Positions 2,500 through 18,655 of a stretch of DNA of 64,000 bases are shown piece after piece (the first letter of the stretch is position 1; every line of letters begins with the position of its first letter). A program made the position numbers and the translations under genes. Origin of the DNA: Sarcina sp. DSM 11001 (GTDB lineage: Bacteria > Bacillota > Clostridia > Lachnospirales > Lachnospiraceae); NCBI RefSeq assembly GCF_900101015.1, contig NZ_FNFZ01000009.1, positions 1 through 64,000 of the forward strand, written 5' to 3'. The notes under the pieces were generated by a model. The model worked only from the letters and a program-made list of their open reading frames with translations, did not search any database and was not told the origin of the DNA.

Positions 2500-2548
2500 G
2501 AAAGAGGCCTCTTTTTCCGCCGAGATCAGCGTTAAAGAGGTCTCTTTC
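2500..2548 (-). terminator. Terminator-like hairpin downstream of the cytidylate-kinase-like gene
   Basis: GAAAGAGGCCTCTTT (2500-2514) pairs with AAAGAGGTCTCTTTC (2534-2548) with one mismatch. Read on the minus strand it lies about 100 bases past the stop of the 2649-3242 gene. It could also close the AEC transcript from the other side. Confidence 0.5.
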
Positions 2549-2648
2549 GTTATGCTGTTGAATAGTCACATTATGCTATTGAATAATCACTGCCGTAAAC
2601 CAGCTGCCCTGAACTCATCGGCGCCTGTCTCTGTTATGCAGGAGTCCG

Positions 2649-3242
2649 TCACCCGTTGCAGAGTTCCTTGTATTTCTTGATGATGTCTACAATGATGTAG
2701 GCAATATCGTTCTCAGATGTATCGTAATACAGGTCGTAGGATTCGGGCACCCCCCACTTTCTTCCGGTGTGCTTCTCATAATATGCCTTCCGGGAGCTGT
2801 CCTTGCGTTCTGTCAGCTCGGCACATTCTTCTTTTGAAAACCCCTGGAGGCGGCAGGTTCTGGCGATCCGTTGGGACAGAGGGGCAGCGATAAAAATGCT
2901 CAGCACTTTGTAGCCTGCTTTGCGCAGCGCTTCGTCCGCGCACCGCCCGACAAAAAGCGCCCCCTCTTTTTCCGCCAGCTGGCAGATCACTTCCTGCTGA
3001 AGCTGGAACACAGTTTCCTCCAGTGTATCCTCGACCTCCGCGTTCTTGTCAAAGGAAAAGGGATTCTGGATCATCTCGTCCATTTCGCGGATGTGCTCCA
3101 CATGGAGATCGCCTCTCTGGGCAGCAAGCAGAATCAGTTCATTATCATAATAAGACAAGCCGAGACGGTTTGCGAGATACTCGCCGATTTTGTGTCCTCC
3201 GCTGCCAAACTGTCTGCCGATCGTAATCATGACCTTCTCCAT
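2649..3242 (-). CDS. Cytidylate kinase-like family protein
   Basis: A 197-residue P-loop protein. The N-terminus MEKVMITIGRQFGSGG holds a variant nucleotide-binding loop (GRQFGSGG, residues 9-16) typical of the cytidylate-kinase-like family found in Clostridia, which is distinct from housekeeping Cmk. Further marks are ALFVGRCADEAL, FIAAPLSQRIAR and a C-terminal YDLYYDTSE segment. AAAGGAGG five bases before the ATG at 3240-3242 fixes the start; a longer upstream frame has no such site. It follows trxB by 69 bases and probably shares its transcript. The true substrate is unknown. Confidence 0.85.
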   Translation of the reverse strand: MEKVMITIGRQFGSGGHKIGEYLANRLGLSYYDNELILLAAQRGDLHVEHIREMDEMIQNPFSFDKNAEVEDTLEETVFQLQQEVICQLAEKEGALFVGRCADEALRKAGYKVLSIFIAAPLSQRIARTCRLQGFSKEECAELTERKDSSRKAYYEKHTGRKWGVPESYDLYYDTSENDIAYIIVDIIKKYKELCNG

Positions 3243-3311
3243 CTTGTCCTCCTTTTCAGCTGTCATAAGGCGCATTTTTCTTTACTGAGGTTTCGGGTCT
3301 GGCTCACTGCT

Positions 3312-4247
3312 TTAATCATTTTCCAGCAGATAGCGCTGCACACTTGTCACGGCATTGGCCCCGTCCGCGACGGCGGTGACTACCTGACGGAGCTGTTTGG
3401 CGCGCACATCCCCCGCGGCAAATACGCCGGGGATACTGGTCTCGCAGTCTTCGCCGGCTACAATATAACCGCCGGCATTGGTCTTGATCCCGGTCCCGAC
3501 AAAGCCGGAGCGGGGTGTGATCCCGACTGCAATGAAGACACCGTCAGTGTCGATCACGCGCTCGGAGCCATCGTTTTTATTGACTGCAGTGACAGAAGAA
3601 ACCTTACCTTTGTTCCCGGACTCCGGACTGCCCTCATTGATGGACTTGAGGTTGGAATCCCAGACCATTTCAACGTTGGGCAGGGCAAACAGAGCCGTCT
3701 GCAGCGTCTTCACGGCGCGGAGCTCGTCACGGCGGTGCACCACATAGACTTTCTCACAGCCCCGGGCAAGGAAAATGGCATCTTCAACGGCAACATCTCC
3801 GCCGCCTACGACAACTGTGGTCTTTCCCCGGTAAAAAGCGCCGTCACAAGTGGCGCAGTAGGACACGCCCCGGCCCGCCAGGGCTTCTTCTCCCGGGACC
3901 CCCAGATGACTGTGGGCGGCGCCGGAGGCGATGATGACCGCTCTGGCTTCAAAGGTACCCTCGTCCGTTATGACCTTTTTGATCTTTCCTTCGAGATCCA
4001 GACCTTCCACAGAGGCATTGATCACCTCCGCGCCGAGCTTCTCCGCGTGATCCGCCATTCTCTGGGCGAGATCCATCCCCGACAGTCCCGGCAGTCCCGG
4101 ATAATTATCGATCTCGTAGGTATCGATGATCTGTCCCCCGTTGACAAAATTCTCCTCGATCAGGATATAATCGAGTTCAGCCCGGGAAGCATAGATCGCG
4201 GCAGAAAGACCTGCAGGTCCCGCGCCGATAATGATCAGATCATGCAT
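3312..4247 (-). CDS. trxB: Thioredoxin reductase
   Basis: This 311-residue flavoprotein has the usual TrxB architecture. An FAD-binding GAGPAG lies at about 8-13 and the redox-active CATC at 131-134. An NADPH-binding VVVGGGDVAVEDA stretch lies at about 145-157, with HRRDELRA after it for phosphate recognition, and the C-terminal FAD motif FAAGDVRAKQLRQV follows. It transfers electrons from NADPH to thioredoxin. The gene lies 37 bases after trxA on the same strand, so reductase and substrate are almost certainly co-transcribed from the promoter near 4.95 kb. Length and motifs are canonical. Confidence 0.97.
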   Translation of the reverse strand: MHDLIIIGAGPAGLSAAIYASRAELDYILIEENFVNGGQIIDTYEIDNYPGLPGLSGMDLAQRMADHAEKLGAEVINASVEGLDLEGKIKKVITDEGTFEARAVIIASGAAHSHLGVPGEEALAGRGVSYCATCDGAFYRGKTTVVVGGGDVAVEDAIFLARGCEKVYVVHRRDELRAVKTLQTALFALPNVEMVWDSNLKSINEGSPESGNKGKVSSVTAVNKNDGSERVIDTDGVFIAVGITPRSGFVGTGIKTNAGGYIVAGEDCETSIPGVFAAGDVRAKQLRQVVTAVADGANAVTSVQRYLLEND

Positions 4248-4284
4248 AATACACTCCTCTCAGATATGTTTCGGAACTGTTTCG

Positions 4285-4602
4285 TCACGCATTAGCCTCA
4301 AACTTCTGCTTCATAGCAGGCTTCGGCACTGCCCCGATCACTTCGTCGACGACCTGTCCGCCCTTGAAAAACTTCATGTTCGGGATGCTCATGACGCCAT
4401 ACTTCATAGCCAGCTCTGAATTCTCATCCACATTGATCTTGCCGACCTTGATCTTTCCCTCATATTCGTCCGCCAGCTTGTCGATCACAGGGGACATCAT
4501 CTTGCAGGGACCGCACCAGTCCGCATAAAAATCAACAAATACAGGGATAGAACTGTTCAGAACCTCTGCCTCAAAATTTTCAGCTGTAAATGTGTAAACC
4601 AT
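4285..4602 (-). CDS. trxA: Thioredoxin
   Basis: A 105-residue classical thioredoxin: VFVDFYADWCGPCK places the WCGPCK active site at residues 29-34, and the cis-proline loop is seen as GVMSIPN (about 69-75). It is a cytosolic dithiol donor for reductases and is recycled by the TrxB encoded just downstream. The start has a GAAAGGATTGG-type ribosome site. It is the first gene of the trxA-trxB-kinase-like operon. The leader carries an unusual degenerate repeat tract and a promoter with a perfect dyad. Confidence 0.97.
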   Translation of the reverse strand: MVYTFTAENFEAEVLNSSIPVFVDFYADWCGPCKMMSPVIDKLADEYEGKIKVGKINVDENSELAMKYGVMSIPNMKFFKGGQVVDEVIGAVPKPAMKQKFEANA

Positions 4603-4621
4603 TTTTCACCAATCCTTTCTT

Positions 4622-4795
4622 GAATCGTAATCATTACATCTTAGTTGTGAATCATAATTGTTGAATCATAATTGTTGGATCGTAACCACTGCATCGTAAT
4701 TGTGAATCGCAATTATTGGATTGAAATTGTTGCATCGTAAATGTTGAATCGTAACCGCTGCATCGTAACTATTGAATCGCGATTGTTGATAACAT
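4622..4795. repeat. Degenerate tandem repeat upstream of trxA
   Basis: About ten to eleven copies of a 14-16-base unit of the form TTGAATCGTAAT(T)G occupy the trxA leader, with variants such as TGCATCGTAAC and TGGATCGTAACC. On the transcribed strand this gives repeated AATTACGATTCAACA. The array lies between the promoter and the start codon, so it is probably transcribed as 5' leader RNA. Confidence 0.8.
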
Positions 4796-4923
4796 AAAAC
4801 AGAGAGCATAAAACAAAAGCCAGATAATTCAACCGCCAATACTGTTGTCATTGTCTCTGACAGCGGGCCCCCTGCCGGTCTTTTGCAGACCGGACACAAA
4901 ATCCCGCCGGTTATCTTAAACGC

Positions 4924-4972
4924 AATTAAATTGTTTACAATTTAATTATACATATCCGCCTCTGTTTGTCAA
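4924..4972 (-). promoter_or_regulatory. trxA promoter with an overlapping perfect dyad (candidate operator)
   Basis: Read on the minus strand, TTGACA (4967-4972) is followed after 16 bases by TATAAT (4945-4950), a near-consensus sigma-A promoter for the trx operon. Overlapping the -10 and covering the likely start is AATTAAATTGT-TT-ACAATTTAATT (4924-4947), a perfect inverted repeat with 11-bp arms. Its position suggests a repressor operator; the binding protein is unknown. Transcription would give a leader of about 330 bases containing the tandem array. Confidence 0.7.
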
Positions 4973-5255
4973 CAACCGTTTTCCGGTCAGAGGCTTCCCT
5001 CCTGCACCGCTGTTATATTTCTTTATATATATTGTATCTTTTTTCTCTTCTGCGGTAAACAGGAAGTAGTCCGGAAAAATAACATGCGGGAATACCGGTT
5101 ACTTTTATGACCGGCAAAGGCAGTTTAAAGTTTTTTATATAAATCGTTCCATATGGTTTACAAACCTGTTACAATATGGATATGTGTGAAAATTTCGCAC
5201 GCGCCAAATCACTGTAAGATCGGAACTGTCGGTCATATATTCAGGAGGGAGAATT

Positions 5256-7088
5256 GTGGGAATATCAGACGTAATTGCTCTTTTATGCGGAGTTGCCATG
5301 TTTCTGTTCGGCATGTCTCTGATGGGAGACGGCCTCAAGAAGCTCTCCGGCGATAAGCTGGAACCTATCCTCTACAAGCTTTCCGGTACGCCCCTTCGCG
5401 GAGTGCTGCTGGGCACCGGGGTCACGGCAGTGATCCAGTCCTCGTCAGCCACCGCCGTCATGATCGTCGGCTTTGTCAGTGCAGGCATGATGAAAGTGGC
5501 ACAGGGAATCAGTGTCATTCTGGGAGCGATCCTGGGAACAAGTATCACCGGCTGGGTGATCTGCCTTAGCTATCTCGATTCCGGGAGCGGACTCGCGGAG
5601 CTCCTTTCCACCGCAACACTGACAGGAATCGTTGCAGTGATCGGAATCCTGATGCGCATGACAGCAAAGAAGCCGTCCGGCCGCCATGTTGGGGACATCC
5701 TGATGGGATTCGTTGTCCTGATGAGAGGCATGAGCATGATGAGCGGCTCTGTGAGCGGCCTTGGCAGCGACCCCCGTTTTGTCTCCGCCCTCACTACCAT
5801 GTCCAACCCTGTACTGGGTATTCTCATCGGAGCACTGTTCACAGCCGTCCTGCAGTCCGCCTCCGCAGGTGTTGGTATTTTGCAGGCCCTGTCCGTTACA
5901 GGCGCCATCCAGCTTGAACAGGCCGTTCCCATTCTCCTGGGAATTTCTATCGGTGCCGCAGCGCCTGTCATGCTCACAGCACTCGGCGCCAATACGAACG
6001 GCAAACGTGTGGCAGCCGTTTATCCGATCGCGACCATACTGGGTACCATCGTCGTCTCCGCTGTGTTTTACACCGCGAATGCGATCCTGCACTTCCCGTT
6101 TATGACCAACGTCATGAATCCTTTTTCCATAGCAGGTGTCAATTCCATCATACGTCTTTTCATGGTCATCCTGCTCTTTCCCTTCGTGAACCTCATTCAC
6201 ACTCTTGTCCAGAATCTGGTCAAAGAGAAAAAGGACGAAAATGAGATCCCCGCTGTCCATCTGGAAGAGATGCTGCTCAAACATCCTGCCATGGCTTTGG
6301 AGCAGTGCCGTATCACCATCAATGAAATGGCCACTCACACGCGGAGAAGCGTAATGCTTGCCCTGGAAATGGTCCGGCATCCTGAAATCGATCATATAGA
6401 AGAGATCAGGAAGCTGGAACAGGCGATGGACGATTATCAGGACGCACTCGGGACCTATCTCGTCAAGCTGACAGGACAGGAAATGACGATCGAACAGCAG
6501 GAATACGTCTCAAAATACCTGCACACCATCTCGGACCTTGAGCTCATTTCGGACCAGGCTCTGGTCATCGCCATCGGATGTGAGAAGGCCCGCGAAAAAT
6601 TCGGAAGCTTTTCCGGCGACGCAGGCCACGAGCTGGAAGTCATGGCCTCCGCTGTGGAAAAGGCTGTCGATCTTGCCACACAGGCCTTTACAGACAACGA
6701 TCTGAGTATTGCCGAGCGGATCGAGCCTCTTGAGGAGCTCATCGACAACCTCTGCGATACCATGAAGCTCAATCATGTGGACCGCCTGCAGAAAAAGGTC
6801 TGCACGATCGCCCAGGGCTTTGTCTTTAACGATATCATCAGCGGCTGTGAGCGTATATCCGACCACTGCTCCAATATCGCCATTGCCATGATCGTCCTGG
6901 GACATGATTCCTATGATATGCACGAATACCTCACAAACCTGCACGAGGAACGCAGCTCTGTCTATGAGCATTATTATGAGGAATACAAGAAGGAATTCGA
7001 TATCAGCGTCGTGTCCTCCATAGACAGATCCGCCGCTCCTTTCGTCGAAGCATCCTCCACGGGATTCGGATACGCCCCCGTCGAATAA
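5256..7088 (+). CDS. Na/Pi cotransporter family protein with PhoU-like C-terminal domain
   Basis: A 610-residue protein. The first half (about 1-320) has the paired Na+/Pi cotransporter repeats with the hallmark QSSSAT (61-66) and its partner QSASAG in the second repeat, spread over eight or so membrane segments. From about 340 to 570 a helical PhoU-like domain follows, with the characteristic spaced acidic residues (QEYVSKYLHTISDLELISD; NDIISGCERISDHCSNIA). The protein probably imports phosphate using sodium, with PhoU-like regulation in cis. The start is GTG at 5256, chosen because AGGAGGG lies seven bases before it. A strong terminator follows the gene, so it is monocistronic. Confidence 0.92.
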   Translation: MGISDVIALLCGVAMFLFGMSLMGDGLKKLSGDKLEPILYKLSGTPLRGVLLGTGVTAVIQSSSATAVMIVGFVSAGMMKVAQGISVILGAILGTSITGWVICLSYLDSGSGLAELLSTATLTGIVAVIGILMRMTAKKPSGRHVGDILMGFVVLMRGMSMMSGSVSGLGSDPRFVSALTTMSNPVLGILIGALFTAVLQSASAGVGILQALSVTGAIQLEQAVPILLGISIGAAAPVMLTALGANTNGKRVAAVYPIATILGTIVVSAVFYTANAILHFPFMTNVMNPFSIAGVNSIIRLFMVILLFPFVNLIHTLVQNLVKEKKDENEIPAVHLEEMLLKHPAMALEQCRITINEMATHTRRSVMLALEMVRHPEIDHIEEIRKLEQAMDDYQDALGTYLVKLTGQEMTIEQQEYVSKYLHTISDLELISDQALVIAIGCEKAREKFGSFSGDAGHELEVMASAVEKAVDLATQAFTDNDLSIAERIEPLEELIDNLCDTMKLNHVDRLQKKVCTIAQGFVFNDIISGCERISDHCSNIAIAMIVLGHDSYDMHEYLTNLHEERSSVYEHYYEEYKKEFDISVVSSIDRSAAPFVEASSTGFGYAPVE

Positions 7089-7144
7089 AGCGGATAAGAT
7101 TTCGACACCGACAGGTTATTTCAGTCAATAGTTCAGTTTATAAA

Positions 7145-11649: not shown

Positions 11650-11681
11650 TTCCATTAGTAAGCGTCAAATAGTTAGTGTCT
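11650..11681. repeat. IS66 left end: target duplication and terminal inverted repeat
   Basis: TTCCATTA (11650-11657) is repeated exactly at 18515-18522. The element starts at 11658 with GTAAGCGTCAAATAGTT then AG TGTCT. The right end read inward is GTAAGCGTCAAATAGTT then GT TGTCT, giving 22 of 24 matches. Confidence 0.95.
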
Positions 11682-11689
11682 AGATTTTC

Positions 11690-11774
11690 CTGTCAGAGAT
11701 GATCTTGTAGATCATTTCTGACAGATTGTATCGCCACATTCAATATCTACAAAAAATGTCATCATTTTTTGTAG
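11690..11774. repeat. Hairpins inside the IS66 left end
   Basis: Two stems lie between the inverted repeat and the tnpC stop. CTGTCAGA(g)ATGATC pairs with GATCAT(t)TCTGACAG (11690-11725), and CTACAAAAAATG pairs with CATTTTTTGTAG (11747-11774) around a TCAT loop. They may terminate tnpC transcription or block outside read-through into the transposase genes. Confidence 0.65.
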
Positions 11775-11804
11775 ACTCCGCAAAAGCCTTCACTTGATGG
11801 CGGA

Positions 11805-13646
11805 TCAGGATGCCCGTCTTTTTCTACGTTTTGGCGTAAGCGGCTTCTCCTGATCCTCACCAACTGATCTGGCGGCGATCAGACGGATCTGTGCCTCTTC
11901 GTATTTCCGGTACCTATCACACCAGGGCACCATGTCCTCCAGAAAGCTGCGGCCTTCCTCCTCCATGTGCTTAGGCATTTCTTCCAGAAGGTACTTCAGG
12001 TAGTAGTAAGGATTGGCGCCATTGGCTTTTGCTGTCTCGATAAGGGAATACACGATGACCGTGGCTTCGGCTCCGTCCGGTGTGTTGCAGAACAGCCAGT
12101 TGCGGCGCCCCACGCACAGATTTTTGAAGCTGCGTTCACAGAATCCGTTATCGATGGGGATATGCGGGTCTTCAAGAAACTGCCGGAGATAAGGCTCCTG
12201 GTTGACCGAGTAGCTGACAGCGTCCCTGAATGTGGCGGAGAGTGCGGGATCCTTGAGATCGAAACTGTGTATAAAGTCGAAGTATGCGTCCACTTTCGGG
12301 CGTACGTCAGACTGGCGGCGCAGATGCCGTTCATCCGGAGACTGTTCTTTCAGCGGGTTTTCCTGCATATAGATCTCTGCGATCAGCTGTATCGCCTTAG
12401 TTTCAGGAAGGCTGTTCACAGCCTCTTCAGTCATCCCGCTGATATCGACGACCTGAAGGGCATTTGCAAACCGCCGTCTCGCATGCATGAAGCAGCCACT
12501 GATGATGACCGATCCATCCATCTCCTTTTCATAGGTATGATACGAAGTATACGCATCGCATGAGATGAAGCGTTTCCCCTGGTCCTTGGAATAGTAGGAA
12601 CGGAGATGGTCCGTGTGGCGGGTCATCTCATAGCAGTAGATGAAGATCTTCCTTTCTTCCGACAGCTCGCTTGTGACATGTGCCCAGATGTAGCTTACAG
12701 TCCCTGCGCTCCGGCCGTCCCGGATGACGGTAAGGGTCGTTTCATCGCACTGATGGTATGGCTGGTTTTTATTCAAGGCTGACAGAAAGTCATATACCGG
12801 TGCCAGAAGGTCCAGGCTGAGATTTACGCACCAGTTGGACATGGTCTGCCTGGATATGATCACCCCTTCTCTGGCCATGTCCTGTGACTGCCGGTAGAAA
12901 GGGAGAGAGAGGCAGAACTTATTATAGAAGATCTCAGCGAGCAGGGACGGGGACACATAGCTGTTCCAGAGCAGCACGTTCCGGTGGGGGACAGACTTCA
13001 TCATGTGTTCCAGCCCGATGGAAATGACCGGGGCATAGGCTTCCCTGACATAACGAACGGTCCTCTGGCTCTCTATGGTCCGGCGGCACCGCCAGAACGC
13101 AATGCGCCAATTTCCCTCGCCATAGGTCTCATTGAGTTCCTCAATGTTCAGTTCAAACTCTTTCACGTGCGGAAGACTGGAAAAGTTTGCAGAACGGGTG
13201 CCCTTCTTTTTACCGGTCCCATGCTTTCTGCCAGTACAGGAAGGGCCGTCATGTGCATCCTCTTTCCCATCTCCTCCGGATCCGTCCTTTTTCTCGTCGG
13301 ATGCGTCTTCATCCAGCGGGTCATCCGGACTGCCCTGGAGACATGATCTCAGGATATCATCTGCCTTCTCAGTGCTGCGTCCGAAGACATCCTTTGTCCT
13401 GAGTGTGGACTTTGCAGTCAGGCGCTCGTTTTCCTCCTTCAGGAAACGGTTTTCTGATTCCAGCCCCCGGACGGTATCCTGCATCTGGCTGAACTGGAGC
13501 GACATCTCCGTGATCCCGCGCGATGTTTCGTCCAGACGGATCTGCGCAGCGCGCAGTTCCCCCATGAGGCGGCAGGCAGTCTCTATGAGCTCTTCGCGGC
13601 TTTTTGTCTGCAGTTCCTCACGGAACAGGATCTCATCAGCAGTCAC
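11805..13646 (-). CDS. tnpC: IS66 family transposase TnpC
   Basis: About 613 residues. An N-terminal coiled coil (QFSQMQDTVRGLESENRFLKEENERL) is followed by a Lys/Asp-rich linker. A zinc-finger/helix-turn-helix-like segment and the DDE transposase core follow: YHQCDETTL gives the first Asp, FISCDAYTSY the second, and the C-terminal IDNGFCERSFKNLCVGRRNWLFC the catalytic Glu with the conserved NLCVGRRNW motif. GTG at 13644-13646 is preferred because AGGGAGGG lies seven bases upstream. Appears intact, with no frameshift. Confidence 0.93.
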   Translation of the reverse strand: MTADEILFREELQTKSREELIETACRLMGELRAAQIRLDETSRGITEMSLQFSQMQDTVRGLESENRFLKEENERLTAKSTLRTKDVFGRSTEKADDILRSCLQGSPDDPLDEDASDEKKDGSGGDGKEDAHDGPSCTGRKHGTGKKKGTRSANFSSLPHVKEFELNIEELNETYGEGNWRIAFWRCRRTIESQRTVRYVREAYAPVISIGLEHMMKSVPHRNVLLWNSYVSPSLLAEIFYNKFCLSLPFYRQSQDMAREGVIISRQTMSNWCVNLSLDLLAPVYDFLSALNKNQPYHQCDETTLTVIRDGRSAGTVSYIWAHVTSELSEERKIFIYCYEMTRHTDHLRSYYSKDQGKRFISCDAYTSYHTYEKEMDGSVIISGCFMHARRRFANALQVVDISGMTEEAVNSLPETKAIQLIAEIYMQENPLKEQSPDERHLRRQSDVRPKVDAYFDFIHSFDLKDPALSATFRDAVSYSVNQEPYLRQFLEDPHIPIDNGFCERSFKNLCVGRRNWLFCNTPDGAEATVIVYSLIETAKANGANPYYYLKYLLEEMPKHMEEEGRSFLEDMVPWCDRYRKYEEAQIRLIAARSVGEDQEKPLTPKRRKRRAS

Positions 13647-13671
13647 GGCGGCACCCTCCCTTACAGCACGA

Positions 13672-14055
13672 TCAGTCCTGTGCCGGGCTCTCGTCCGCAC
13701 AGAGCATCTGTACTTTGTGGATGATCCTCTGGAGCCTGCCGTTCTGTTCCCTTAGGGAACGGATCTCGGCATTCTGGCTGCTGATAACGGCTTCCTTTTC
13801 CAGGATGCGCTGCTGCAGGTCGCTGATCTGTGCTGTCAGGGCAGACAGGGCCTGGTCCTGCCGGACATCCTGGTCCGGATCCTTTTTCTTCCTTCCGCGC
13901 TTTCCGGTCGGGATGATCTCCCCGGTCTCCGGATCGAGTTTCCCGATCACCCGGCGCTTTGAGCGGGACTGCCCCTTTTCCGCGTCCCAGTAACTCGTTG
14001 ACTCATAAACATAAGTAGTATCTGTATCCTTGTGGTACTGTTTGATGATCGCCAT
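13672..14055 (-). CDS. IS66-associated accessory coiled-coil protein
   Basis: 127 residues. The N-terminal half (MAIIKQYHKDTDTTYVYES, then KRRVIGKLDPETGEIIPTG and the basic KRGRKKKDP) resembles the leader module of some clostridial transposases. The C-terminal half is a leucine-zipper-like coiled coil (LTAQISDLQQRILEKEAVIS, then AEIRSLREQNGRLQRIIHKV). GGAGGTG lies before the ATG. It sits between tnpB and tnpC, 25 bases before tnpC, and is not one of the three standard IS66 genes. It may help TnpC bind DNA or oligomerise; that is inference. Confidence 0.75.
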   Translation of the reverse strand: MAIIKQYHKDTDTTYVYESTSYWDAEKGQSRSKRRVIGKLDPETGEIIPTGKRGRKKKDPDQDVRQDQALSALTAQISDLQQRILEKEAVISSQNAEIRSLREQNGRLQRIIHKVQMLCADESPAQD

Positions 14056-14188
14056 AATTCACCTCCATGTGACATTTTAACTATCTCTATTATATCACTT
14101 ATTGGAGAATTATGCAATAACAAAGTGACATTTATTTTAAAAAATATGTCACACCCCGGGGAAATGGTCCCGGAGATCCGCGCCCTTG

Positions 14189-14380
14189 TCACTTGCGTTT
14201 TCTGCCGGACTTTCCCGTTTTGGGACCGCGTCTTACAGTTCCTTCCAATGTAAACCCGCTCATCAGGAGGCGGTACTGCTCCGGCGTTATGTCACGTGCT
14301 TCAGCGGAATCCCTTGGCCACTGGAAACGGCCGTCAAAGGAAAGGCGTTTATAAATGAGTACAAAACCGTCACCTTCCCA
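14189..14380 (-). pseudogene. tnpB: IS66 tnpB, 3' part (separated from its start by the RIT insertion)
   Basis: Read on the minus strand from 14380 the frame gives WEGDGFVLIYKRL, then FDGRFQWPR, ITPEQYRLLM and a Lys/Arg-rich end GPKTGKSGRKRK before TGA at 14189-14191: 63 residues of the second half of an IS66 TnpB. There is no start codon of its own. It joins in frame with the 60-residue first half at 17859-18038 if the RIT element is removed, restoring FKGLL-WEGDGF and a 123-residue protein of normal TnpB length. The gene is thus split, not decayed. Confidence 0.92.
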
Positions 14381-14475
14381 TAAAAGTTATTCCGATGTTT
14401 TAGTTATTCCGACCTATTGGCTGTAAATACAAGATATTTTAGAGAATCGGTTGAAAAATATCGGAATAAGTAATT
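14381..14475. repeat. RIT left end with recombinase-site-like repeats
   Basis: The 33-bp terminal repeat contains two direct copies of GTTATTCCGA (14386-14395 and 14403-14412). A third, inverted copy TATCGGAATAAGT lies near 14458-14470, so the outer pair and the inner copy face each other across about 45 bases. Paired inverted 10-12-base arms are the usual form of a tyrosine-recombinase core site. Confidence 0.75.
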
Positions 14476-14512
14476 CCCTATCTGTATCAATTAAATACAG
14501 GAGGGACAACCT

Positions 14513-15769
14513 ATGAAAGCAACAAACAACTATCCTGAGTGGGATACAATCGCAGAAAACTTGAAGGCAGGGCTTGGTTATTCAGAAGCCACACTAAAAA
14601 GGACAAGATATACTTATCAAGTTTTCAAACGGGATTTCTGTGATGATTATAACGGAGGTGATGCAGAAAACATAATAAGACATGGAATCGAGCGGACAGG
14701 CAATGCTTTTGAAACAGGAAGCATTTCAAAGGACAAACTCCTTCGGATCAGGAGATTGGCATTCCGTATGCTTCAGTTTATTGAAAACGGACATATCACC
14801 TGGGAACGTGCGCCATTATTCGGACAACCGCACGGAAGCACTGAAAATGAAGCTTTACTGGCTGCCTATGTTTCAACTGAAAAAAGTGAGAGCAGGCATG
14901 CGGAGTCTATAATTAAGCGTGATGAGAACATCATAAGACAATATATCCTTTATGCGGAAGAGAACGGGATCAGCATCCTTAAGGCTGATGCATGTAACCT
15001 CATTGCTTTTTTATCACACATGAAAAAACTCCGGCCGGCTGGAATAAAAAGCACAGCGTCAGCGCTAAAGCATTTTTATCTGTACCTGATCGAAAGCGGA
15101 AAAGTACAGCCCGGCATACTTGCTGCAATAAAAGCATGGGATACGCCACATAAAAGAATATACGGGATCTTTTCAGACGCTGATAAGCGAAAACTGGCGG
15201 CGGCTCCAGACAGAAGTTCAGATGTCGGAAAACGTGACAAGGCTGTCATAATGCTGGCAATTGACTGCGGTTTAAGAAGTTCTGATATATGCAACCTGAA
15301 GCTGACGGATATTGACTGGCGTACGGCTTCACTGAATATCATTCAGAAAAAAACAGGCACCCAGATATCAGTTCCATTCTCATATGAGAGCGGAGACGCC
15401 CTGGCTGATTATATCCTGAACGCCAGGGGGCCTTCACCGTTGCCCTATGTGTTTTTAAAAAAGTCATATTTTGACAGTGCTATGACATCTGCCCTTCTGT
15501 GCCAGCGGCTTAAAAAGCTTATGGAAAAAGCCGGAATAACCCGTCCTGCATCGGAGAAAATCAACATGCATACTTTCCGGAGAAGCCTGGGAACTTCACT
15601 GGTAGATTCTGGGGAAAACCTTGAAATGGTAGCACAGATCCTGGGCCATAAGGACAAGGAGGCAACGAAAGGGTACATCTCTGTTTCAGAACGAATGCTT
15701 CGGCTTTGTGCCCTCCCTATGCCTGAGTTGAACGAAAGGGAGGAGCACCATGATCAGAATGAAGTTTGA
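14513..15769 (+). CDS. RIT tyrosine recombinase, first gene (RitA-type)
   Basis: 418 residues. An N-terminal SAM-like core-binding region (about 95-215) precedes the catalytic domain. Catalytic residues are visible: Arg in CGLRSSDICNL, His-x-x-Arg in MHTFRRSLGTSL, His in ILGHKDKEAT and the nucleophile Tyr in KGYISVSERM. The residue set R-H-R-H-Y is complete, so the enzyme should be active. AGGAGGG lies seven bases before the ATG. It overlaps the next recombinase by 20 bases. The N-terminal extension is longer than in XerC/D. In RIT elements the three proteins are thought to act together. Confidence 0.93.
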   Translation: MKATNNYPEWDTIAENLKAGLGYSEATLKRTRYTYQVFKRDFCDDYNGGDAENIIRHGIERTGNAFETGSISKDKLLRIRRLAFRMLQFIENGHITWERAPLFGQPHGSTENEALLAAYVSTEKSESRHAESIIKRDENIIRQYILYAEENGISILKADACNLIAFLSHMKKLRPAGIKSTASALKHFYLYLIESGKVQPGILAAIKAWDTPHKRIYGIFSDADKRKLAAAPDRSSDVGKRDKAVIMLAIDCGLRSSDICNLKLTDIDWRTASLNIIQKKTGTQISVPFSYESGDALADYILNARGPSPLPYVFLKKSYFDSAMTSALLCQRLKKLMEKAGITRPASEKINMHTFRRSLGTSLVDSGENLEMVAQILGHKDKEATKGYISVSERMLRLCALPMPELNEREEHHDQNEV

Positions 15770-16721
15770 GAGCGCCCTCCGGCAGAAAGAAGAAGCATTC
15801 ATTAAGTTTAAAAAGGACTTTGGCCATGTGTATGATTCCCAGACATATCATTTACTGGATTTTGACAGGTTCTGTCTTGCGGAGTATCCGGAAGAAGACT
15901 CACTGACAGAAGACATGGTAATGAGATGGTCTGTCATCAAAGATACTGAAACTTCAAACGGGTACATTTCAAGGATAACAACAGTACGCCAGTTCGGCAA
16001 ATACCTTGCTATGATGGGAGAAGATGCTTTTATTCTTCCCGAAGGGCTGAAGGGCGGAGATATGCCACTCATGCCATACATATTTTCCAGTGAATCTCTT
16101 AGGGATTTTTTCCTGTATACGGATACGATGGACCGGTATTACCAGTCAACGGTCCGGCACATAGTAGCCCCTGTCATGTTCAGGTACATGTACTGCTGTG
16201 GACTGCGTCCTATCGAAGCAAGACGCATGGACCGGGAAGACGTAAACCTTAAAACAGGAAGAATATTTGTAAGAGAATCTAAATATAACAAGGAAAGGGT
16301 TATTTACGCGCCGGATGAACTGCTGTCTCTTACGCGAGACTATCTTGGTAAGATAGCAGCTGTTTTTCCTGGAAGTGCTGCACTGTTTGTGGACAGGAAG
16401 GGGGGGCGACTTTCTAAAGACGCACACCAATACCTTTTTGAGCATTGTCGCGATGGTTCAGGGATAAAGGAGTCCGGCACAAAAAGGCCAAACATGTACA
16501 GCTTTCGTCATTCCTTTGCAACCCATCGTATATACCAGTGGCATAAGGACGGCAAAGATATCAGTTCACTTCTCCCCGGATTAAGTGCATATATGGGGCA
16601 TACAAGGTACCAGCATACCCTGTATTACCTTCATTTTCTGCCGGAACTTTTCTCTGATATGGCGGGGTTCGATCTTGAGCAGTTCTCAGAAATCATACCG
16701 GGGGTGACTGGTGATGACTGA
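15750..16721 (+). CDS. RIT tyrosine recombinase, second gene (RitB-type)
   Basis: 323 residues with the same integrase fold. Catalytic residues: Arg in CCGLRPIEARRM, a Lys-bearing beta-hairpin (RESKYNKERVIYAP), SFRHSFATH in place of the usual HxxR (Ser instead of the first His), His in YMGHTRYQHT and Tyr in LYYLHFLPE. The substitution of the first His is seen in the MYSFRHSF segment and could change activity. The ATG lies within the end of the first gene, with GGGAGGAG close upstream, so expression is probably translationally coupled. It overlaps the third gene by several bases. Confidence 0.92.
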   Translation: MIRMKFESALRQKEEAFIKFKKDFGHVYDSQTYHLLDFDRFCLAEYPEEDSLTEDMVMRWSVIKDTETSNGYISRITTVRQFGKYLAMMGEDAFILPEGLKGGDMPLMPYIFSSESLRDFFLYTDTMDRYYQSTVRHIVAPVMFRYMYCCGLRPIEARRMDREDVNLKTGRIFVRESKYNKERVIYAPDELLSLTRDYLGKIAAVFPGSAALFVDRKGGRLSKDAHQYLFEHCRDGSGIKESGTKRPNMYSFRHSFATHRIYQWHKDGKDISSLLPGLSAYMGHTRYQHTLYYLHFLPELFSDMAGFDLEQFSEIIPGVTGDD

Positions 16722-17745
16722 TGAAAGCAGGAAAATGTTTGAAAAGATACGGGCATTCCTGACCGTATACATGCCAAAACAGCGTGGATTGAGCAGCTAT
16801 ACAATAAAGTCCTACAAACAATGTATAAACCAGTTTCTGACTTATATTACACAAAAAAAGAAGGTCCGATATGATGAAATATCATTCAGGAATTGGGATG
16901 CTTCTACAATAAGCGACTATCTTGTCTACCTTGAAAATGAAAGGAATGTGTCGGCTTCTACCAGGAACCAGCGCCTGTTTGCAATACGTTCATTCCTGAA
17001 ATATGCCAGGATATCCAATCCGGAGCTGATGGCATTGTCAATGGAAGCATCCGGGATCTTGACCGCAAAAGAAGCCGGGGAGCCGGTTGCGTTTCTGAGT
17101 GAGAAGGCTATGGAGGTCCTTCTCCGGCAGCCGGATGACAGCACCAGGATCGGACTCAGGGATATGTGTTTTATGGTTACCATGTATGATACTGCCGCAA
17201 GGGACTGCGAAATGCTGAACCTCCGTCTGAATTCACTGGACCTTAATGAAGGATGTCCAAAAGTAAGGCTTGAAGGAAAAGGCAATAAAGTCAGGCAGGT
17301 GCTGCTCATGAAGAAGACTGCCAGTCATTTAAAAAGATACATCAGCGTATTCCACTCCGAGGATACAAAGAAAGAAGACTGGCTGTTTTATACAGTTGCA
17401 CACGGAATACGGAACAAAATGTCTGATGACAACGTAGCGAGGTTTTTGAAAAAATATACAGCCATGGCAAAAGCGGAATGTGAAGAAGTACCAGCCAAAG
17501 TAACACCACATCAATTTCGCCATTCCCGTGCGATGCACTTGTATCGCCATGGAATGCCGCTTCAGCTTTTGGCTGAGTATATGGGACATGCATCAGTTAT
17601 ATCAACTCGGATTTACGCATATGCGGATACAGAAATGAAACGAGCTGCAATTGAAAAATGCCAGGGAAGAAATGCTGCAGCAACAGATCTTCCTGAATGG
17701 AAGAATAATGATGAGCTTATCAAAAAACTGTATGGCCTTGCGTAA
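16714..17745 (+). CDS. RIT tyrosine recombinase, third gene (RitC-type)
   Basis: About 343 residues. The N-terminal core-binding domain is clear (YTIKSYKQCINQFLTYI; VSASTRNQRLFAIRSFLKYA). Catalytic residues: Arg in YDTAARDCEML, Lys in LEGKGNKVRQV, HQFRHSRAMHL, His in YMGHASVIST and Tyr in RIYAYADTEM. All five residues are present. ATG at 16714 is preferred over GTG at 16711, with GGGGGTG upstream. Its start overlaps the stop of the second gene. After its stop the element end begins almost at once (first TTATTCCGA motif at about 17750). Confidence 0.93.
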   Translation: MTDESRKMFEKIRAFLTVYMPKQRGLSSYTIKSYKQCINQFLTYITQKKKVRYDEISFRNWDASTISDYLVYLENERNVSASTRNQRLFAIRSFLKYARISNPELMALSMEASGILTAKEAGEPVAFLSEKAMEVLLRQPDDSTRIGLRDMCFMVTMYDTAARDCEMLNLRLNSLDLNEGCPKVRLEGKGNKVRQVLLMKKTASHLKRYISVFHSEDTKKEDWLFYTVAHGIRNKMSDDNVARFLKKYTAMAKAECEEVPAKVTPHQFRHSRAMHLYRHGMPLQLLAEYMGHASVISTRIYAYADTEMKRAAIEKCQGRNAAATDLPEWKNNDELIKKLYGLA

Positions 17746-17858
17746 ATAACTTATTCCGATAGAATCGAGATCATAACATGATTCATATATGTTTTTCTTG
17801 ATTCTGTCGGAATAACTAAAACATCGGAATAACTTTTATAATTCCGATGTCGGAATTA
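17743..17858. repeat. RIT right end with recombinase-site-like repeats
   Basis: Contains CTTATTCCGATA (about 17750-17761), the 33-bp inverted copy of the left terminus (17806-17838) with two inverted GTTATTCCGA motifs, and an extra near-palindrome TAATTCCGA-TG-TCGGAATTA (17839-17858) absent from the left end. The element ends are therefore asymmetric: three motif copies left, five right. Confidence 0.75.
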
Positions 17859-18038
17859 CAGCAGTCCTTTAAATCTGTCGGCCCGTGTGCCGCAGAAGAG
17901 GAAAAGCGTACCTTCTTCCATGGGGTCCAGTCCGTAGTGAAGGCTGACGATGGACTTCAGTCCATCGATCCCCTTGCGAAGGTCGGTCCGGCCGCACCGG
18001 AGTATGATCTTTTTGATACCGGAAGCTTCCTTAAGCAT
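17859..18038 (-). pseudogene. tnpB: IS66 tnpB, 5' part (cut by the RIT insertion)
   Basis: Sixty residues, MLKEASGIKKI, ...RCGRTDLRKGIDGL, ...LFLFCGTRADRFKGLL, the first half of an IS66 TnpB, overlapping the end of tnpA by eight bases as is usual in this family. At 17858 the frame enters the RIT end and meets TAA at once. The missing second half is at 14189-14380. TnpB is needed for IS66 transposition, so this insertion should immobilise the element until the RIT is excised. Confidence 0.92.
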
Positions 18039-18426
18039 TTCTCACGGCCCTCAGGACTGTGGAAAGAGTGGATTCACTTACCCCTTCTGTGACAAAGATC
18101 CTGCAGTCACTGCATTGAAGGACAAGACCTTTTCCCGTCTGGCGGTAAGCTGAAGAGTCTGCCATATCTCTGACTGACTGGAGATCCACCTCTACAAACC
18201 TGTTATCAGGCAGGGATCCGGAGAGACTTACTGAGAGCTCCTGTTTCTCGGACAGGTGATGCCCAGTGCTTTCAGTCTGCCAGATACGATGCTGCCAGTA
18301 GTAGAGTTTACGTTCGGAGATCCCGTTAGCCTTACACCAGGCACGTTTGCTCATGCCGCTTGTGTTGGCTTCGGCCAGGATCTTTTTCCACTCCGCAAGG
18401 CGGAATTCCTTCGTTTTCTTTAACAT
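18031..18426 (-). CDS. tnpA: IS66 family transposase accessory protein TnpA
   Basis: 131 residues beginning MLKKTKEFRLAEWKKILAEA. It has a helix-turn-helix-like segment (SGMSKRAWCKANGISERKLYYWQHRI) typical of IS66 TnpA, and a more variable C-terminal part ending CRIFVTEGVSESTLSTVLRAVRNA. The start at 18424-18426 has GGAGGCAGGGAG before it; an upstream in-frame codon lacks one. First gene of the IS66 transcript. Confidence 0.88.
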   Translation of the reverse strand: MLKKTKEFRLAEWKKILAEANTSGMSKRAWCKANGISERKLYYWQHRIWQTESTGHHLSEKQELSVSLSGSLPDNRFVEVDLQSVRDMADSSAYRQTGKGLVLQCSDCRIFVTEGVSESTLSTVLRAVRNA

Positions 18427-18439
18427 CTCCCTGCCTCCA

Positions 18440-18472
18440 TTGATAGAATCATTAGTCAATTGATTCTATCAA
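18440..18472. promoter_or_regulatory. Perfect 12-bp inverted repeat just upstream of IS66 tnpA
   Basis: TTGATAGAATCA (18440-18451) and TGATTCTATCAA (18461-18472) form a perfect dyad with a 9-base loop between the right terminal repeat and the tnpA ribosome site. It may be an operator, a leader hairpin limiting outside read-through, or a transposase-binding site. Confidence 0.55.
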
Positions 18473-18490
18473 AGACAGGGTTCTCGAAAC

Positions 18491-18522
18491 AGACAACAAC
18501 TATTTGACGCTTACTTCCATTA
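18491..18522. repeat. IS66 right end: terminal inverted repeat and target duplication
   Basis: The inverted repeat ends ...AACTATTTGACGCTTAC at 18514, followed by TTCCATTA (18515-18522), identical to the left copy at 11650-11657. Confidence 0.95.
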
Positions 18523-18655
18523 TTCTGTTTCTCATTCTGTTTCTCATTCTGTTTTCCATTCTGTTTCTCATCCTGTTTCTCCGTCTGTGTTTTCCATTCT
18601 GTTTCTCATCCTGTTTCTCCGTCTGTGTTTTCTATTCTGTCTCATCATTTTTGTT
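18523..18655. repeat. Tandem repeat in the livH upstream region
   Basis: The 12-base unit TTCTGTTTCTCA recurs in a row. It is then organised as two near-identical 38-base units, CCATTCTGTTTCTCATCCTG followed by TTTCTCCGTCTGTGTTTT. The IS66 target site TTCCATTA lies at the edge of this array, so the array predates the insertion. The array lies upstream of the livH promoter. Confidence 0.85.

Follow-up and report, generated by a model that had tools for sequence, protein, structure and literature searches.

RIT (recombinase in trio) elements of Cupriavidus and other bacteria are reportedly covered by Van Houdt (2009) and Ricker (2013). Here we analyse a RIT of 3478 bp (positions 14381–17858) that is nested in the tnpB gene of an IS66-family transposon, within a 64,000-bp stretch of contig NZ_FNFZ01000009.1 (the window) from Sarcina sp. 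DSM 11001, whose genome is a 4.15-Mb draft of 76 contigs. In the sections of PMC3414803 on which we draw, RITs are described as three adjacent overlapping recombinase genes of about 3.5 kb in total, with inverted repeats of 28–34 bp and an overlapping palindrome, and the insertion targets given are the transposase gene of Tn6049 and radC, the latter within an integrative and conjugative element. The RIT in the window has the gene trio, the size, the repeats with palindrome and the insertion into a transposase gene in common with the Cupriavidus type. Compared to the described RITs, it adds worked-out ends, 6-bp overlaps, a native site and constant target codons; the target specificity, empty site and movement of RITs are tabled as not tested in the excerpt of PMC10214605 used here. 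According to the same excerpt, SE elements (strand-biased circularizing integrative elements) are like the RIT in that one end carries a 6-bp target sequence and the opposite end a 6-bp fingerprint of the donor, and Tn554 resembles the RIT in its several recombinase genes, its lack of a classical target duplication and its 6-bp footprint. SE elements are gammaproteobacterial and have four core genes and cargo, whereas RITs have three recombinases and a one-sided 20-bp palindrome; Tn554 differs in having two recombinases plus TnpC, resistance cargo and imperfect end repeats. GInt islands, in the portion of PMC5385486 cited here, share three recombinase-type genes, proposed 6-nt staggered cuts and a circular intermediate with what we propose for the RIT, but they have a fourth gene (ginD), large cargo and chromosomal targets.

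Our central observation is that the two outer borders of the RIT carry different 6-mers, of which one belongs to the interrupted tnpB and the other was probably brought along. The preliminary description had treated the element as a plain unit between perfect 33-bp inverted repeats. The repeats are perfect, but they are one base longer, at 34 nt (14380–14413 on the plus strand and 17806–17839 on the minus strand, 100% complementary), and a structure outside the right repeat had been overlooked. This structure, P20, is a one-sided 20-bp palindrome of the form 9+2+9 (TAATTCCGATGTCGGAATTA, 17839–17858) that shares one base with the right repeat and whose arms are the same as the core arms of the repeats. 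The left core arm is TTATTCCGA (14387–14395, plus strand) and the right core arm is TCGGAATAA (plus-strand letters; 17824–17832, minus strand), the latter separated from P20 by 6 bp (17833–17838, plus strand). P20 is adjoined by X6, a 6-bp overlap at 17859–17864 (minus strand) that reads CTGCTG on the tnpB strand and CAGCAG on the plus strand. At the left end, which has no P20, the 6-mer is CTTTTA (14381–14386, minus strand). A scan for the palindrome followed by 6 bp and a core arm, with at most one mismatch in the core, found one place in the window and none in each of 10 shuffles. Among 397 genomes of the family, the P20 pattern with one mismatch allowed was present in two, one of them the host genome.

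To locate the original target, the DNA of the tnpB N-terminal half and tnpA was compared to 62 genomes of the genus. This yielded an intact homologue (L157; loci and contigs are numbered with L and C) with 83% DNA identity over query positions 5–591 of 601, whose junction reads TTTAAAGGC-CTTTTA-TGGGAAGGC, DRFKGLLWEGDGF. Since L157 has CTTTTA, we read the 6-mer at 14381–14386 as native and CAGCAG at 17859–17864 as foreign. On this comparison, the original site is probably the join 14386/17865, which lies 6 bp away from the join 14380/17859 and agrees with the intact homologue. The preliminary description had fixed the insertion point at 14380/17859; this is not supported, as the intact tnpB reads CTTTTA where that join gives CTGCTG, a kind of difference that the description itself had named as refuting. 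Its statement that the join restores a TnpB of 123 residues is correct, although the joined DNA is probably not the original one: both joins give the same open frame (RFKGLLWEGDGF), and CTTTTA and CTGCTG both encode Leu-Leu.

The restored frame is one of the points in favour of plain cut-and-paste, by which the target CTGCTG stayed beside P20, a unit including 14381–14386 entered as a fixed piece, and excision would restore 14380/17859. The codon usage of the IS66 points the same way, as does one relative (L042) in which X6 equals the sequence of an intact copy. We nevertheless consider this course unlikely. When leucine codon usage was tried for telling which 6-mer is native, it favoured CTGCTG, contradicted by L157; this hint was set aside because the intact homologue is direct. 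Two other RITs, L144 compared to intact L152 and L099 compared to intact L155 and L156, show the same arrangement as the window. Thus, in all three copies with differing outer 6-mers and an intact site found, the native 6-mer is at the end without P20 and the foreign 6-mer is beside P20, as is also the case, with native 6 bp at one end and foreign 6 bp at the other, for SE elements and Tn554. One could also read the 6-mers as coding differences between diverged IS66 copies with later mutation, so that no tag is carried. In L144, however, X6 differs at three of six bases while the flanks are identical to intact copies at 394/394 and 400/400 positions, which makes this reading very improbable. 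The foreign X6 was probably carried from an earlier target and looks like a tag of the former host site. The earlier claim that the insertion left no target duplication needs rewording: each outer border carries the 6-bp overlap, and the two overlaps are the same in 17 of the 29 single-ended copies of the anatomy scan but differ in the window. A further idea was that in mobile copies I6 and the 6-mer beside P20 are always the same; it was ruled out, with X6 and I6 identical in just 18 of 37 rows. The comparison defines the native site exactly and reveals three readable 6-mers in the end structure. The rule drawn from it could be tested by PCR, both for the RIT in the window and in well-studied rhizobial strains; Sinorhizobium meliloti 1132, for instance, has a RIT in an IS66 of exactly known intact form.

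Near-identical copies at different sites, together with intact sites, are comparative evidence that these elements may be mobile. We propose, as the likeliest course, that the RIT forms a circle in the manner of SE elements or Tn554, in which crossover would take place at two palindromic sites with overlaps of 6 bp. A rival to this is strand-biased copy-out/copy-in as proposed for SE elements, in which the element is copied into a circle while the donor site remains occupied, so that it is never emptied; the cited part of PMC10214605 states that in SE elements circle formation need not leave an empty site behind. The directional placement of target and donor 6-mers, as given there for SE elements and Tn554, would fit this rival, and so would the near-identical RITs L079 and L082, which persist at separate sites of plasmid pRUMAL02. 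On the other side, the fourth gene of SE elements has no counterpart in the RIT and other routes also yield multiple copies, so we lean away from copy-out/copy-in while taking it as a serious possibility. End anatomy, native site and foreign 6-mer together are a readable clue to the movement of the widespread but little-studied RITs.

The orientation of copies bears on the proposed circle with two crossover sites. In a separate clade from Alphaproteobacteria, RITs are inserted in IS66 tnpB at DP[FYH]/xG, a different codon pair than in the window, and RitB is 26% identical to RitB of the window in the alignment. Sixteen copies were fetched (L078, L137–L151), of which nine had P20 with the expected arm and seven were left unplaced (L138, L139, L142, L146–L149). 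P20 faces the tnpB C-terminal half in all nine readable copies, but lies on the ritA side in five (L137, L141, L144, L145, L150) and next to ritC in the remaining four (L078, L140, L143, L151). A fixed facing of P20 with the RIT body in either direction would result if the two crossover sites of a circle were equivalent, or if the body was inverted later. L141 has no recognisable second end, and a search for the empty site of L150 found none.

Closer to the window are seven loci on genome contigs with RitB 57–81% identical, including Clostridium ragsdalei and uncultured Lachnospiraceae. In the window and all seven relatives, the PF05717 halves stop at one shared profile position, and the tnpB junction is at the same codon pair; both halves are seen in the window, L039, L041 and L044, and one half type only in L038, L040, L042 and L043. 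P20 is present at both ends in L040, L042 and L043, which are either real rearrangements or chimeric draft contigs. L040 and L042 have tnpB 5' halves on both sides of the RIT. The class search also returned more distant RITs (L175–L178 and L180), with P20 found by the scan in L175–L177.

The element at 14381–17858 is, as described earlier, a RIT inside an IS66, and both are of an ordinary kind. Its three adjacent genes are on the plus strand and encode tyrosine recombinases with PF00589 matches: ritA (14513–15769, 418 aa, 6.6e-29), ritB (15750–16721, 323 aa, 9.9e-20) and ritC (16711–17745, 344 aa, 6.5e-31). They overlap by 20 and 11 bp; the overlaps of 4–8 bp given in the cited sections of PMC3414803 are slightly shorter. 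No cargo was seen within the element. Because only the three PF00589 genes are inside, and neither the SE set (intA, tfp, intB, srap) nor the Tn554 set (tnpA, tnpB, tnpC) is present, we do not file this RIT with SE elements or Tn554, although it would work like them. RitB aligns with the middle gene of the Cupriavidus pHG1 trio (tblastn, 29.5% identity over 98%, 7e-38), so that kinship to named Rit proteins was established for RitB, the one protein compared. Invariant in the alignments are R255, K280, H353, R356, H379 and Y388 of RitA, R153, K178, R253, Y292 and Y293 of RitB (in which Y250 takes the usual place of the first histidine), and R164, H267, R270, H293 and Y302 of RitC. We take these to be active-site residues, and the putative catalytic positions are thus kept in all three proteins. 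The consulted section of PMC8138268 assigns two core-binding domains to RitA and an extra C-terminal helix to RitC. In the window, RitA has about 118 residues ahead of the XerD-like part, and a profile comparison of both stretches gave no significant match.

Lastly, we asked which genes RITs interrupt by reading the two flanking half-genes of 28 RITs from the anatomy survey separately. Mobile-element genes or introns are interrupted in 22 of the 28, 18 assigned by Pfam or annotation (several with only one half-gene long enough to test) and four by likeness or eye. The 18 targets are IS66 tnpB (window, L039, L041, L044, L078), IS66 TnpC (L077, L099, L070 and, by an intact homologue, L093), Mutator/IS256-type transposases at profile 331/334 (L057, L022), rve transposases (L054, L079), a reverse transcriptase of the group II type (L061), tyrosine recombinases (L063, profile 131/133, and L075), IstB (L091) and a Mu/rve-type gene (L068). 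The four others are L082 and L110 (like L079), L051 (reverse transcriptase-like) and L055 (group II intron-like). A ParA-like ATPase is the target of L050, two targets are open frames without family (L062, L071), and three were not assigned (L020, L021, L056). A nuclease family for L062 and L071 had been considered and was dropped, with no Pfam match. The target sites are presumably catalytic or conserved motifs, such as YTTN in IS256 transposases, HSDQG in IS3 transposases and the HxxR box in RitC. Different RIT subfamilies have settled on transposon genes, as parasites of parasites with defined addresses. Tentatively, and with our doubts slightly the heavier, RITs as a class may home to mobile DNA much as inteins do. 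Each subfamily would use one codon group of a conserved motif in a mobile-element protein (IS66 TnpB or TnpC, IS256, IS3-type/IS21 transposases, IstB, the reverse transcriptase of group II introns, recombinases of other RITs), with a palindromic double crossover site and 6-bp tags that record past hosts. If so, a chain of previous hosts could be read from the tags.

Several of these loci deserve mention in their own right. The host genome contains two further RITs of other subfamilies: L050 on contig C65, whose insertion adjoins the P-loop of the ParA-like ATPase gene (Pfam AAA_31 from profile position 14), and L051 on contig C56, which sits in an ORF resembling a group II intron reverse transcriptase. 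L063 (about 3589–7117) and L075 (about 2522–6081) lie inside tyrosine recombinase genes that apparently belong to other RITs, that is, a RIT within a RIT. L079, L082 and L110 are closely related and occupy the same codons of three IS21 istA-like genes on the Ruminococcus albus plasmids pRUMAL02 and pRUMAL01; one 6-mer of L110 differs by one base. Five whole contigs of 3.4–3.7 kb (L009, L011, L017, L021, L028) contain little besides a RIT. The collapse of multicopy elements during draft assembly would produce such contigs, and copy number could be estimated from them.

No second copy of the RIT was found in its own genome, and its DNA gave no second copy among the 62 genomes of the genus, where three short matches (37–46 bp) occurred in other genomes. 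Viral contigs searched with RitB, TnpC and P20 gave no match, nor did plasmids with TnpC at 1e-60. In the host genome, no tnpB of IS66 was found beyond the two halves, and the IS66 DNA matched six of the 397 genomes of the family, the five besides the host only over short stretches of 30–98 bp. Scanning the window for Rfam families and tRNAs returned nothing.

The IS66-family transposon spans 11658–18514 (3379 bp without the 3478-bp insert). Its terminal repeats match at 25 of 40 bases, and it has a perfect 8-bp target duplication (TTCCATTA, 11650–11657 and 18515–18522), as noted before. Because this duplication surrounds the composite, the IS66 arrived first and the RIT second, which agrees with the order given in the preliminary description. 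The IS66 genes are on the minus strand: tnpA (18031–18459, NF047593 over cut-off), the tnpB N-terminal part up to RFKG (17865–18038, PF05717 profile 2–51), the C-terminal part of tnpB, which encodes LLWEGDGF and takes in the native 6-mer (14189–14386, profile 49–97), and the transposase gene tnpC (11805–13700, PF03050 3.2e-63, NF033517). The two halves of TnpB match a single PF05717 profile. Between tnpB and tnpC, there is an extra ORF of 127 aa (13672–14055, minus strand) that matched neither a Pfam family over cut-off nor any NCBIfam entry. A 12/38-bp tandem array (18522–18649) begins on the last base of the right target duplication.
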